From: Corallococcus sp. EGB | Lineage (GTDB): Bacteria > Myxococcota > Myxococcia > Myxococcales > Myxococcaceae | NCBI RefSeq assembly: GCF_019968905.1 | Contig: NZ_CP079946.1 | Coordinates: 6,483,356 to 6,547,355, forward strand | DNA: 64,000 nt | Reading direction: 5' to 3' | Shown: positions 7,480-32,063 of the stretch, in pieces | Position numbering within the stretch: position 1 is the stretch's first letter | Layout: each line of letters opens with the position of its first letter | Position numbers and translations under genes: made by a program | The notes under the pieces: model-generated | What the model saw: the letters and a program-made list of their open reading frames with translations, nothing else | Told to the model about the DNA's origin: nothing | Databases searched by the model: none

Positions 7480-7803
7480 GGCAGGACTCGTTTTTTCATC
7501 CGGTTCTTGCGCCCACAAGGCCGAACGAAGCGAGCTCCTGCCCCTTCCCTCCTCCGCCAGTGCCTACTTACTCGCCAAGCCGTTCGAAGAGGCGCACCTG
7601 GCCGTGACACATGGCACAGGTCGCGTACCAGGAGAGAGTCATCCCCGGCTCCCGGTGGCGCCCACGTCCCACGCCAAGAGGTTCCTGTCCTCCCGGTCCA
7701 GGAGCCCCAAAAGCCGACGCCGCACTTTACCTTCTATCGCCACCGCGCCTCCTTTCGGCCGGGCAAGGTCGTCGGATGCGCAGCTTGCCTGACGTTCCGG
7801 CGC
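7480..7803. other. Stretch without a supportable gene next to the transposase remnant
   Basis: No frame shows credible coding sequence. A 24-codon minus-strand peptide at 7568-7642 happens to contain CAMCH. The region looks like debris left by the element insertion and decay. Confidence 0.4.
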
Positions 7804-8209: not shown

Positions 8210-9850
8210 ATGGACCGGACGAAGTCTCTCTCGCTCGCTGCCCTGGCTGCCCTGATGGTTGGGGGGCTCGCTTCGTGCGAGGCGATCGCTCTGCCGCGTG
8301 ATCCCTATCTGCAGAAGGTGGGCCCCGACACCGCCACCGTCGCGTTCCGGCTGTCGTCCAACTGCTCCAGCGCGCAGGTGCGGTATGGCGTCGGTGATAT
8401 CAGCCAGACGGCCCGGTCCTCGGCCACCGCGAAGATCCACGCCGTGGTCCTCACCGGCCTGACTCCCGCCACCACCTACACGTACGCCGTGGACGCGTGC
8501 GGTGAGGCGTCGCTCCCCAAGACGTTCAGCACCGCTCCCGTGCCCGGCACGCGGCGCGCGCACTTCGCCGCCGTGGGTGACTTCGGCACCGGCGGCAGCG
8601 ACCAGAAGAAGGTCGCGGCCGCCATGCTCGCCGACAAGCCGGAGCTCTTCGTCGCCCTGGGTGACAACGCCTACTCGTCCGGCACCGAGGCCGAGTTCCA
8701 GAACAACCTCTTCACCCCCATGGCCGCCCTGCTCTCGCAGGTGCCCATGTTCGCCGCGCCCGGCAATCACGAGTACGTCACCAACGAGGCCCAGCCGTAC
8801 CTGGACAACCTCTACCTGCCCACCAACAACGCGGAGGGCTCCGAGCGCTACTACTCGTTCGACTGGGGGCATGTGCACTTCGTGTCCCTCGACTCCAACT
8901 GCGCCGTGGGCCTCGCGTCCGCGTCCAAGTGCACGCCCGCCGCGCAGAAGGCCTTCGTGGAGAAGGACCTGGCCGCCACCACGCAGCCGTGGAAGATCGT
9001 CTTCTTCCACCACCCGCCCTGGTCCAGCGGCGAGCACGGCTCCCAGCTCACCATGCGCCGGCAGTTCGGCCCGCTGTTCGAGAAGTACGGCGTGGACCTG
9101 GTCCTCACCGGCCATGATCACGACTACGAACGCAGCAAGCCCATGCTCGGTGACGCCGAGGCCGGCAAGAACGAGAAGGGCATTCCCTACCTCGTGGTCG
9201 GCGGCGGCGGCGCCACCCTGCGGACGTTCGCCAACGCGCGCCCGTCCTGGAGCGTCATCCGCGACGACGTGGCCCATGGCTTCCTCGACGTGAATGTCGT
9301 GGAGGGCACCCTCACCGCGAAGCTCGTGAAGACGGATGGCGGCATCCTGGACACCTTCACCCTCTCCAAGACGCTGCCCCCGCCGCCCGAGCAACCCCAG
9401 GGCACGCTGAACGTCGCCGTCGACAGCGCCAGCGGCACCGCGCCCCACACGGCTTCGTTCACCGCGACGGCCCCCCAGGCCAACGCCACCGTCACCTGGG
9501 ACTTCGGCGACGGCGCCACCGCCCAGGGCACGCAGGCCCAGCGCGTCTTCGCGCAGGCCGGCACCTACACGGTGACGGCCACGGCCACCGTCCAGGGCAC
9601 CGCTCCGCTGACGTCGACCACCGTCGTCACAGTCACGGCCAACGGCACCACCGACCCCGGCACGGGCGAGGACGCCGGCACCACGCCGTCCGACCCCGCC
9701 CCCCGCCCCGAGGTCCCGGCCACGCCCACGACGCCGGGGGATGACTCGAACGGGGGGAGTGGCTGCGCCGCCGGCCCGTCCGCAGCCCTGATTCCCGCCG
9801 CGACGGCCCTCGTGGCCGGACTCGTGCGCCGCCGTCGCCGCGACCGCTGA
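8210..9850 (+). CDS. Exported purple-acid-phosphatase-like metallophosphoesterase with PKD domain and sorting tail
   Basis: I chose the ATG at 8210 because GGAGG lies 4 bp upstream and the signal peptide (MDRTKSLSLAALAAL, then GGLASC) starts there. The 546-residue product has an Fn3/PAP N-domain at about 30-110. A calcineurin-like phosphoesterase domain follows at about 115-385 with all metal motifs: GDFGTGG, GDNAYSSG, GNHEY, HHPPW, GHDHDYER. A PKD domain at about 395-475 contains VTWDFGDG. The tail ends in SGCAAG, a hydrophobic stretch and RRRRRDR, which fits a MYXO-CTERM signal cleaved and anchored by myxosortase. The N-terminal LASC could alternatively be a lipobox. It probably hydrolyses phosphate esters at the cell surface. 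A palindrome array follows the stop codon. Confidence 0.88.
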   Translation: MDRTKSLSLAALAALMVGGLASCEAIALPRDPYLQKVGPDTATVAFRLSSNCSSAQVRYGVGDISQTARSSATAKIHAVVLTGLTPATTYTYAVDACGEASLPKTFSTAPVPGTRRAHFAAVGDFGTGGSDQKKVAAAMLADKPELFVALGDNAYSSGTEAEFQNNLFTPMAALLSQVPMFAAPGNHEYVTNEAQPYLDNLYLPTNNAEGSERYYSFDWGHVHFVSLDSNCAVGLASASKCTPAAQKAFVEKDLAATTQPWKIVFFHHPPWSSGEHGSQLTMRRQFGPLFEKYGVDLVLTGHDHDYERSKPMLGDAEAGKNEKGIPYLVVGGGGATLRTFANARPSWSVIRDDVAHGFLDVNVVEGTLTAKLVKTDGGILDTFTLSKTLPPPPEQPQGTLNVAVDSASGTAPHTASFTATAPQANATVTWDFGDGATAQGTQAQRVFAQAGTYTVTATATVQGTAPLTSTTVVTVTANGTTDPGTGEDAGTTPSDPAPRPEVPATPTTPGDDSNGGSGCAAGPSAALIPAATALVAGLVRRRRRDR

Positions 9851-9871: not shown

Positions 9872-10216
9872 AAACCTGTCCGACTGTCGGACAGGTTTTG
9901 GACCACCGCGGCCCCACCCCGCCCTGGGCCGCTGTCCCGGACAGGTCGCGCGAACGGGTCCGACTGTCGGACAGGTCTTGTGGGCCCCCAGCGCGGGCCC
10001 GTGTCCAGGTGGCTCTCCCAGAGAGGCCTCTCGAACCTGTCCGACAGGGTTGGGTCCCCTACGGGCGGCCCCGTGACCGCGGGTTCCGGCAGGAGCGGGC
10101 CGCGCGAACGGGTCCGACTGTCGGACAGGTTTGGGGACCACTCCCGGCGGCCCCGCGTGGCTGGGGCGTTGGCTCCAGCCAGGCCGCGGAAACCTGTCCG
10201 ACAGTCGGACAGGTTT
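9872..10216. repeat. Array of five palindromic repeats at 76-84 bp spacing
   Basis: Five inverted repeats are centred at 9885, 9965, 10041, 10119 and 10203. The two outer ones (9872-9898 and 10190-10216) are perfect 27-bp palindromes with arm AAACCTGTCCGAC around one central T or A. The third is shortened to a 13-bp core (CCTGTC-C-GACAGG). A degenerate 13-bp copy lies at 9932-9944. The second and fourth share the leading flank CGCGCGAACGGG, giving a higher-order period of 154 bp. The array fills the 513-bp gap between two rightward genes. An isolated copy recurs at 31621. It behaves like a REP/BIME-type element, and it could also end transcription. Confidence 0.85.
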
Positions 10217-10363
10217 GGGCCCCTCGGCCCCGGGGGACGGGCCCCGAGAGCCTCTGACGCGGCTCCCAGACGCCTCCGGCCGGTCCCTCCAGGGCCTTCC
10301 GGGGGCGTCTTTTGCGTTCCCTGCTTGTCAACGCGGCCTGGGGGATGCGAAGGCCCATGCGAC

Positions 10364-11854
10364 ATGGCCACGACTCGCAAGCCTGGACCTTCCCGCAGTG
10401 GCGCCCCGAAGTCCGGCGGGCCCCGCCGCCCGTCCCGCCCTGGCGCTCCGAAGCGCAAGGACGCCGGTGGACGCGCCGACAAACCGAAGCTCAGCCGCGC
10501 CCAGCATGAACGCGCGCGCCCCAACCCGAACCGCCCCCTGCGCGAGGACCTGGTGCTCCAGGCCTGCCTGGAGGCCTACGGCGGCGTGCGCCGCGAGGGG
10601 CGCCTGTCCGACCGCGCCCTGGAGTTCGTGCTGCGCCGCAAGACAGCCCTGTACTCCACCGAGCGTCGCGCCGTGGCCGAGCGCGTCTACGCCCTGCTGC
10701 GCCGACAGCGCACCGTGGACTTCCTCCTGGAGAAGTCCCACCGGAAGTTCGACGCGCTGGACGCCACCCGCCAGGACGTCATGCGGCTCGCCGCGTCCCG
10801 CATCCTCCACGGCGAGGACCCCGCCTACGTCGCGCGCACCAGCGGACTCACCGGCCCGGACGTGTCCGTGCTCGACCGGCTGCCGGACGCCGCCGCGGAG
10901 CTGGATGCCCTGCCGGAGGCGAAGCGCTTCCCCATCGCCGCGTCGCTGCCGGACTTCCTCGCGGACCGCTTCCTCGCCGTCTTCGGCAAGGACGCCGCGC
11001 GCGCCGCCGAGGCCATGAACGAGCGCGCCCCGCTCATCGTCCGCGCCAACACGCTCAAGGGCGACCGCGCCCAGCTCCAGGAGCGGCTGGCGGCGGAGGA
11101 CGTGGAGTCCACCAAGCCCACGGCCCTGTCCCCCTTCGGCCTCGTCATGGAAACGCGGCTCAACCTCTTCTCCCTCCAGGACTTCAAGGACGGGGGGTTC
11201 GAGATCCAGGACGAGGGCAGCCAGTTGCTGGGCATGCTCGTGGACGCGCCGCCCACCCGCGTGGTGGACGCGTGCGCGGGCGCGGGCGGCAAGACGCTGC
11301 AGTTGGCCGCGCAGATGAAGAACCGCGGCGACCTGCACGCGCTGGACGTGGACGAAGGCCGCATGGAGGACCTGCGCAAGCGCGCGCGCCGCGCTGGCGT
11401 GCACAACGTGCGCACGCAGCTCATCCCCCATGAGGGCCCGGAGGCGGACGCCGCGCTCACGCCGCTCAAGGGCCAGGCGGACCGCGTGCTGGTGGACGCG
11501 CCGTGCAGCGGCACCGGCACCTTCCGCCGCAAGCCGGACGCGCGCTACCGCCTCACGCCGGAGGATTTGGAGATGCACGTGGGCCGGCAGAAGGCCCTGC
11601 TCGCGCGCTTCGCCATGCTGGTGAAGCCCGGCGGCCGGCTCATCTACGGCACGTGCAGCGTGCTGCGCGAGGAGAACGAAGAGGTGGTCGAGGACTTCCT
11701 GTCCAAGCACCCCGACTTCAGCGTGCGCCCCGTGGCGGAGGTGCTGGGCGCGGAGCTGGGCGGGAAGCTCGGCCCCGGCCCGTACCTGCGCCTGGCCCCG
11801 CACACCCACGGCACCGATGGCTTCTTCGGCGCCGTGCTCGTCAAGGCGAAGTAA
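10364..11854 (+). CDS. RsmB/NOP-family RNA cytosine-5 methyltransferase
   Basis: The 496-residue product has a basic, disordered N-terminus (residues 1-55, many Lys, Arg, Pro), an NusB-like helical domain (about 65-200), and a class I SAM-dependent methyltransferase domain from about 270. The SAM loop is VDACAGAGGKTLQL. The two cysteines of m5C enzymes are present in DAPCSGTGTFRRKPD and GTCSVLREEN. Family members methylate cytosine in 16S rRNA, so this is probably RsmB or a paralogue. I placed the start at the ATG at 10364; the frame stays open further upstream, but only through the palindrome array, which is unlikely to be coding. Confidence 0.9.
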   Translation: MATTRKPGPSRSGAPKSGGPRRPSRPGAPKRKDAGGRADKPKLSRAQHERARPNPNRPLREDLVLQACLEAYGGVRREGRLSDRALEFVLRRKTALYSTERRAVAERVYALLRRQRTVDFLLEKSHRKFDALDATRQDVMRLAASRILHGEDPAYVARTSGLTGPDVSVLDRLPDAAAELDALPEAKRFPIAASLPDFLADRFLAVFGKDAARAAEAMNERAPLIVRANTLKGDRAQLQERLAAEDVESTKPTALSPFGLVMETRLNLFSLQDFKDGGFEIQDEGSQLLGMLVDAPPTRVVDACAGAGGKTLQLAAQMKNRGDLHALDVDEGRMEDLRKRARRAGVHNVRTQLIPHEGPEADAALTPLKGQADRVLVDAPCSGTGTFRRKPDARYRLTPEDLEMHVGRQKALLARFAMLVKPGGRLIYGTCSVLREENEEVVEDFLSKHPDFSVRPVAEVLGAELGGKLGPGPYLRLAPHTHGTDGFFGAVLVKAK

Positions 11855-31620: not shown

Positions 31621-31647
31621 AAACCTGTCCGACAGTCGGACAGGTTT
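31621..31647. repeat. Isolated copy of the 27-bp palindromic repeat
   Basis: It has the same 13-bp arm (AAACCTGTCCGAC) around a central A as in the array at 9.9 kb. The flank TTTTGGACGACCGCGGCC closely matches TTTTGGACCACCGCGGCC after the first array copy, so the mobile or conserved unit is longer than the palindrome. It lies 45 bp downstream of the mazF stop. Confidence 0.85.
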
Positions 31648-31691: not shown

Positions 31692-32063
31692 TCAGTCGCG
31701 GAAGAACGAGGCCTGCTGGAAGCGCAGGCCCGCGAGGACCTGTTCAACCCTCGCGTCAGAGAGCGCCCCGATGCGCTCACCGAGCCTCGACTTCTCCACC
31801 GAGGACACCTGGGACACGACCACGACGCTCTGCTTCACCAGGTTGCCCTCCCCCACTTCGAGCAACACGTTGCCGGGCTCGCTTGCCTTTCTCAGATTGG
31901 AGGTCAGGGCGCAGACGATGACCGTGTGGATGCGGGAGCGGTTGAAGACGTCGTCCTGGATGACGAGGTAGGGGTGCGCGATGGGCGGGATGGAGCCTCG
32001 GGCCTCGTCCGGCTCACACCAGAACAGGTCGCCTCGGCGGATCAGCTTCGGGGCCGCGCTCAT
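31692..32063 (-). CDS. Solitary MazF/PemK-family endoribonuclease toxin
   Basis: The 123-residue product shows the MazF fold: LIRRGDLFWCEPDEARG, HPYLVIQDDVFN, TVIVCALTSNLRKASEPGNV and KQSVVVVSQVSSVEKSRLGE. MazF enzymes cleave mRNA at short sequences. I chose the ATG at 32063 (MSAAPKL) at the usual family length; the longer frame adds non-homologous residues. No mazE-like antitoxin is found upstream (the 100 bp to the divergent CPBP gene has no frame) or downstream (pseudogene and palindrome). A solitary MazF is known from Myxococcus xanthus, where it is linked to developmental cell death. Orthology is not proven here. Confidence 0.85.
   Translation of the reverse strand: MSAAPKLIRRGDLFWCEPDEARGSIPPIAHPYLVIQDDVFNRSRIHTVIVCALTSNLRKASEPGNVLLEVGEGNLVKQSVVVVSQVSSVEKSRLGERIGALSDARVEQVLAGLRFQQASFFRD

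Follow-up and report, generated by a model that had tools for sequence, protein, structure and literature searches.

Palindromes dispersed between the genes of Corallococcus look like docking sites of a multi-copy FadR-type regulator

The window, that is the whole stretch of 64,000 nucleotides that was analysed, covers positions 6,483,356–6,547,355 of the genome of Corallococcus sp. EGB (G000 in what follows). It contains an array of five palindromes between two genes on the same strand and a solitary copy of the same palindrome further downstream. The features are as follows.

8210–9850, + strand: left flanking gene, metallophosphoesterase with a PKD domain, ending 21 bp 5' of the array start
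9872–9898, no strand assigned: perfect palindrome, copy 1 (13+1+13, centre T), T-type
9952–9978, no strand assigned: palindrome copy 2, two core mismatches (GAACGGGTCCGAC left arm)
10033–10059, no strand assigned: copy 3, degenerate, with a good left arm only
10106–10132, no strand assigned: palindrome copy 4, two core mismatches (GAACGGGTCCGAC left arm), flank in common with copy 2
10190–10216, no strand assigned: perfect palindrome, copy 5 (centre A)
10268–10313, + strand: terminator-like hairpin with a T run
10364–11854, + strand: right flanking gene, RsmB/F-type rRNA methyltransferase, used as the anchor of the orthologous locus
31621–31647, no strand assigned: solitary perfect palindrome (centre A), 44 bp beyond the 3' end of the PemK/MazF-like gene
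31692–32063, − strand: PemK/MazF-like gene adjoining the solitary copy

The five palindromes that the initial annotation had placed at 9872–10216 are present: two of them are perfect, another two carry two mismatches each, and the fifth is degenerate. Their starts are 80, 81, 73 and 84 bp apart, and the proposed period of 76–84 bp is therefore nearly right, with one shorter step. The longer flank shared by two copies and its 154 bp period are found at 9952 and 10106, and the two perfect array copies do have opposite centres (T at 9872 and A at 10190). The solitary copy is the same 27-mer with an A at its centre, and its downstream flank TGGACGACCGCGGCC matches TGGACCACCGCGGCC at 9899, again in agreement with that description. 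The presence of the 27-mer AAACCTGTCCGACnGTCGGACAGGTTT in the window is far beyond chance: with two mismatches allowed, the arm AAACCTGTCCGAC is matched 12 times, compared with a mean of 1.03 and a largest value of four in 100 dinucleotide shuffles.

The array lies between a stop codon and the terminator-like hairpin. We rejected the array itself as the terminator because this separate hairpin is found both in three aligned relatives that have the array and in three that do not. A known RNA family was likewise rejected, as Rfam gave no matches at E values up to 1 over window positions 7500–33000. As RNA, the perfect 27-mer forms a hairpin of −17.8 kcal/mol.

The pattern CTGTCCGACNGTCGGACAG with at most two mismatches occurs 244 times in the one-contig 9.43 Mb genome, while the reversed control gives no matches. 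The arm is thus not restricted to the window, and the interpretation as a repeat family stands. We read the window and a further 60 stretches, each of 20 kb, of which 48 are at listed palindrome places; together they cover 223 of the 244 copies, at 50 loci. Genes in these stretches were called with our own codon-score finder, and the same stretches provided 499 background intergenic regions. Predicted coding sequence makes up 87% of what was read, yet just 14 of the 223 copies fall inside predicted genes (ten of these at one place) and 209 fall outside. Genome-wide, mostly intergenic and arrayed, the family is REP/BIME-like, as the initial annotation suspected. Convergent intergenic regions are preferred (14 of 49 loci versus 55 of 499 regions of at least 60 bp; odds ratio 3.2, p = 0.0013) and divergent ones are under-used (10 of 49 loci versus 175 of 499 regions; p = 0.04).

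Spacings between copies cluster at 67–73, 57, 49–51 and 36–40 bp, and as many as 20 units stand at a single place; the window array, at 73–84 bp, is looser than these clusters. Around the palindrome there is an oriented, looser and G+C-rich flank from about −40 to +37 (182 oriented copies of 333, relatives included). In the arrays that were read the spacers look related between units, which favours tandem duplication over unrelated spacers of the CRISPR type; tandem duplication of palindrome units is evident. Read on the + strand, the centre base differs between the chromosome arms: 23 loci have A and five have T before 4.9 Mb, versus five A and 13 T after it (p = 0.0005; 50 loci, of which four without a majority were left out).

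A few copies lie within genes. At L203 (G000 positions 4,360,741–4,361,445), 13 in-frame palindromes with a period of 57 bp (one of 60 bp) are located in a nonribosomal peptide synthetase gene. Its open reading frame, which is cut by the end of the stretch, encodes at least 4659 amino acids with Pfam Condensation, AMP-binding, PP-binding and Thioesterase domains. By eye, the array is inside an adenylation domain immediately ahead of its LAYVIYTSGSTG motif and adds about 250 residues of a 19-residue repeat. At L199 (around 2,696,699), two palindromes in a predicted ORF of 2254 amino acids encode NLSDSRTG twice. In L196 (at 2,019,292–2,020,452) and L202 (at 3,521,056–3,522,216), a DDE_Tnp_1 insertion sequence of 386 amino acids is found between or beside palindrome arrays, and at L238 another transposase remnant may split the array, as judged by eye. 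As owner of the palindromes this insertion sequence was rejected, being seen at two of nine array stretches whose genes were examined.

Four loci with 49–51 bp arrays led to a GntR regulator of the FadR type. G000 has nine copies of it, 82–100% identical to the query, none of them in the window; a tenth match is remote. Across the genus we found 114 regulators in 15 of 16 genomes, with 0 to 15 copies each and none found in G066. Another 12 genomes outside the genus contain relatives of the regulator. These counts derive from at most 19 candidates scored per genome, such that the value for G078 is at least 19. The sequence around 79 of the 114 genus regulators was read: all of them in G000, G057, G059, G062, G063, G064, G065, G067 and G069, and part of them in G058 (eight of nine), G060 (six of 13), G061 (two of 11), G068 (one of six), G070 (one of 11) and G071 (one of four). 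Excluding L396 and L401, which end at contig edges, every one of the 77 genus regulators with upstream sequence has a palindrome (at least 19 of 24 letters) 109–148 bp upstream of its start codon. In three one-contig genomes, 11 of 29 regulators contain a further palindrome in their own 3' coding tail, and these genes are therefore bracketed by their own sites. Over the 16 genomes, the numbers of palindromes and regulators correlate with a Spearman coefficient, uncorrected for relatedness, of 0.76 for the T-type and 0.85 for both types. No palindrome was found upstream of 16 aligned G078 regulators and two aligned G080 regulators, nor of the single copies in G082 and G083. G078 and G080 belong to genus g7, and paralogues of this regulator number at least 19 in G078 and 16 in G080; those of G078 share a promoter-like upstream block, CTGTCAGCCCCAGGTG.

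Pfam GntR scores above its cut-off in three of three regulators and matches all 15 members of A1. It is the sole Pfam domain, and hence no catalytic one is present, above cut-off in the regulators scanned; Pfam FCD is weak and appears in three of 15 members. An AlphaFold2 model based on a 15-row alignment (mean pLDDT 71, pTM 0.52) consists of a winged HTH, an all-helical domain (helices 78–231) and, after a disordered tail, a final helix. Foldseek places E. coli FadR at rank 2 (2.2e-06). In the structure alignment FadR is again second, after a FadR chimera, with a Z-score of 15.8 over 216 residues and an rmsd of 13.4, the latter probably reflecting the angle between the domains. The C-terminal domain of PdhR matches with an rmsd of 2.6 over 134 residues (Z-score 13.4). 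As modelled, the regulator is a FadR-fold protein, with a GntR winged HTH followed by an all-helical C-terminal domain of the FadR/FCD type. The long C-terminal tail is predicted to be disordered and varies between paralogues; in L110 it terminates in a predicted helix, and a WxxRLWR-like C-terminal end is common to some other regulators.

The operator consensus of E. coli FadR is TKGT-N3-ACMA. The palindrome contains GT-N3-AC cores of this kind, with outer boxes that fit TKGT; the inner boxes match the rule incompletely, the inner box not being ACMA. Two dimers may thus be accommodated on one palindrome.

Two types of site are found upstream of the regulators, AACCTGTCCGAC (T-type) and AACTGGTCCGAC (G-type). 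According to the study by Suvorova and co-workers (PMC4494728), Arg35 of E. coli FadR contacts a guanine, and where this residue is an arginine G/C is preferred in the TKGT box. From the spacing of the conserved arginines, residue 33 of the regulator corresponds to this Arg35. Of the 91 rows of the type table 82 were usable, seven rows from outside the genus (L263–L267, L272 and L273) being dropped as they have no usable site. CTGGTCCGAC occurs with an arginine at this position in 22 of 22 cases and CCTGTCCGAC with a different residue, such as Ala, Glu or Gln, in 59 of 59, with one tie in the g3 genome G043. The match also holds inside single genomes: G057 has six G-type and six T-type regulators, G058 three and three, G063 eight and seven, G059 one and 11, and G060 one and five. 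In a tree calculated without the HTH part the residue changes five times and the base six times, with agreement in 81 of 82 rows; the site of regulator L248 is a half-changed hybrid. Two independent pairs are well supported and both agree, which is too few for significance, and the residue/type match rests on few independent evolutionary events.

The dispersed palindromes show a similar pattern. G057 and G063, in which all regulators were read, contain 76 and 81 G-type palindromes together with six and eight G-type regulators. G059 has one G-type regulator and a single G-type palindrome, which is therefore that regulator's own site. The fully read genomes without a G-type regulator (G000, G062, G064, G065, G067 and G069) have 0–2 G-type palindromes, and G066, where no regulator was found, has none. 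In the partly read genomes the counts are 30 for G060, 18 for G058, nine for G068, one for G070 and zero for G061 and G071. The prediction that G-type palindromes are common only beside G-type regulators held, with gaps. In genus g3, five of six genomes have 14–42 G-type palindromes. In G044 (Archangium lansinium) and G046, 13 of 14 and 11 of 14 of the copies listed share the variant centre of the site upstream of their own regulator, while G043 is a counter-case, with a TTGTCCAAC-like site at its own regulator yet 42 G-type copies, and so is G045, with 14 copies and no detected regulator. Palindrome type across genomes thus appears largely to track the regulators.

With at most one mismatch, 23 of the order's 145 genomes contain the palindrome. 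All 16 Corallococcus genomes have it, with 6 to 224 copies, and seven genomes outside the genus have 1 to 13 copies each. Exact matches, among the named genome records listed, are mostly from Corallococcus, with a few from Hyalangium and Archangium and one from a Myxococcaceae MAG. Palindromes are also seen where no regulator was detected (11 copies in G066, eight in G047, 14 in G045 and four in G089).

At the window locus, identified through the RsmB-like anchor, clear copies number four in G000 (plus the degenerate one), seven in G059, five in G070, two in G057, one each in G063, G069 and G061, and at least one in G058, where the contig is cut; five genomes in this comparison are cut by contig ends. 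G066, G068 and G071 keep both flanking genes and have no palindrome there. The array is T-type in G000, G059 (one tie), G070, G069 and G061, and G-type in G057, G063 and G058 (the G058 copy being hybrid-like); a weak chance match of 13 of 24 letters in the methyltransferase gene was ignored in this typing. A second locus has 20 copies in G000 (17 T-type and three tied) and three G-type copies each in G060 and G058 with a relaxed pattern (three and two in a separate count). Of the 14 genomes that have its anchor gene, ten show no copy, and in G063 the copies are found only at a greater distance; among the ten, G069, G070, G064 and G071 keep both flanking genes. The place of the solitary copy holds a degenerate copy in G059 and none in the other 14 of the 16 genomes, where the far flank is mostly not found alongside. 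Orthologous loci thus range from 0 to about 20 copies, and these comparisons show that copies turn over at fixed places, with their type following the genome. The flanks of empty sites have diverged too far between genomes to show clean target duplications.

Relative to G059, four G000 regulator genes are syntenic on both sides and a fifth on one side; with G059 or G069 as reference, five of the nine G000 positions have a syntenic partner, and the genes therefore do not hop often. The four syntenic G000/G059 pairs are 76.8–80.3% identical, like non-syntenic pairs (means of 75.4–80.6%), and paralogues within one genome are 80–95% identical (the G-type L287 left out); the nine G000 regulators form one clade. 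In G000, 20 of 25 intervals between upstream sites measure 48–51 bp; in G059, 14 of 16 measure 45 or 128–149 bp. Together, the homogenised paralogues and the genome-specific site spacing point to ongoing copying within genomes, with gene conversion as the putative agent of homogenisation.

The palindromes are probably the sites of these multi-copy FadR-subfamily GntR regulators, autoregulatory at the regulator genes and near-neutral satellites elsewhere. Each palindrome would be a double FadR-type operator, its two facing GT-N3-AC cores bound by the regulator family, and upstream of the regulator genes it would act as an autoregulatory operator. The remaining copies, whether solitary or in tandem arrays, favour gene 3' ends, as the window array does, and would have arisen from this sequence through copying and tandem duplication. 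They turn over fast and would most likely form a near-neutral reservoir of additional sites by which the regulator is titrated, and would not serve as promoter operators. Physical binding and autorepression are what we infer from the sequences, and titration by the dispersed sites is our guess. The initial annotation had offered a repeated binding site as one of two guesses, and this appears to be the better one in view of the upstream palindrome in 77 of 77 regulators and the residue/type match. The comparisons suggest that the roughly 240 palindromes are docking sites of a repressor-type family and that protein and sites have multiplied together.

Were each palindrome a functional operator of the neighbouring promoter, as in a classical regulon, one could point to the identity between the dispersed sequence and the site upstream of the regulator, and to FadR-subfamily proteins being transcription factors, as stated in passages of PMC4494728. 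This is nevertheless improbable: a simple promoter regulon was rejected on the orientation bias towards convergent and away from divergent intergenic regions and on the variation from 0 to about 20 copies at orthologous loci, and the window array follows a stop codon and precedes a terminator-like hairpin. The other guess of the initial annotation was a REP/BIME family mobilised by a transposase of the RAYT type (Y1, IS200/IS605-like), an origin that the intergenic location, 3'-end bias, hairpin potential, clustering and presence/absence differences between species would suit. Pfam Y1_Tnp (PF01797), however, has no matches in any of the 16 genus genomes, G000 included, while the control is positive in five of 14 named genomes; neither the GTAG end tag (two of 223 copies versus 8.6 expected) nor the CGTC end tag (15 of 223 versus 18.2 expected) is enriched; and the gene that accompanies the repeats encodes a DNA-binding regulator. 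The implied mobilising enzyme did not materialize, and RAYT-driven REPs within the genus, which we rejected on the Y1_Tnp and tag results, appear largely refuted, leaving this origin very improbable.

Regulator and sites could also be one parasitic family in which the protein promotes copying of its sites, for example through guided recombination or fork repair. The 11 of 29 regulators bracketed by their own sites would fit this, as would the homogenised within-genome paralogues, with syntenic pairs no closer than non-syntenic ones, and the in-frame arrays inside other genes. We consider it unlikely, given that the scanned regulators have no catalytic Pfam domain above cut-off, that five of nine G000 positions are syntenic and the genes seldom hop, and that the G078 paralogues have no palindrome. 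Systems such as matS/MatP and the SlmA sites rely on dispersed sites for nucleoid organization. That the present protein structures the nucleoid in a similar way deserves hardly any credence, as the copy number varies from 6 to 224 between species of one genus, the sites are strongly clustered and G066 has no regulator that we could find, even if the sites are dispersed and their centre base follows the chromosome arm.

Beyond the reading as regulator sites, we can entertain, as a speculation with a rather small chance of being right, a selfish partnership of transcription factor and operator. A repressor-type protein without nuclease or transposase would drive or shelter the spread of its operator, gene conversion would homogenize both, and a change in a base-reading residue would re-specify all sites. 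Interspersed palindromes of bacteria are usually credited to a transposase or left ownerless. Here a repeat family can be linked to a DNA-binding regulator through its position, its copy number and the residue-to-base match. This is a natural example, open to testing, of a transcription factor and numerous sites whose specificity changes jointly, and it may help to account for palindromic repeats without a known enzyme. At the level of search results, the literature on Corallococcus or GntR with repeats gave no description of such a pairing.

As far as the relevant passages of PMC3733652 describe REP/BIME elements with RAYTs, the family resembles them in being short, many-copy, extragenic palindromes with a 3'-end bias, present as singletons and arrays and with a dedicated protein gene alongside. 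It differs from them (PMC3733652, same passages) in having no Y1 transposase and no GTAG or CGTC tag, and in that its protein, a regulator with the FadR fold, occurs in several copies. With the CGTC-tagged repeats, including the Rickettsia palindromic elements, it shares the lack of a known dedicated transposase and the occurrence of palindromes inside coding sequence as well. Rickettsia palindromic elements are inserted in frame in genes. The Corallococcus family, unlike the CGTC-tagged repeats, does not have the CGTC tag, is tied to a regulator gene and has most of the copies read outside genes. Its closest parallel in fold, GT-N3-AC core and Arg35/G rule is E. coli FadR with its operators. 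What sets it apart from these is that the site is doubled around one shared centre, that its copies run to hundreds and mostly lie away from promoters, that a genome holds several paralogues, and that the disordered C-terminal tail has a last helix.
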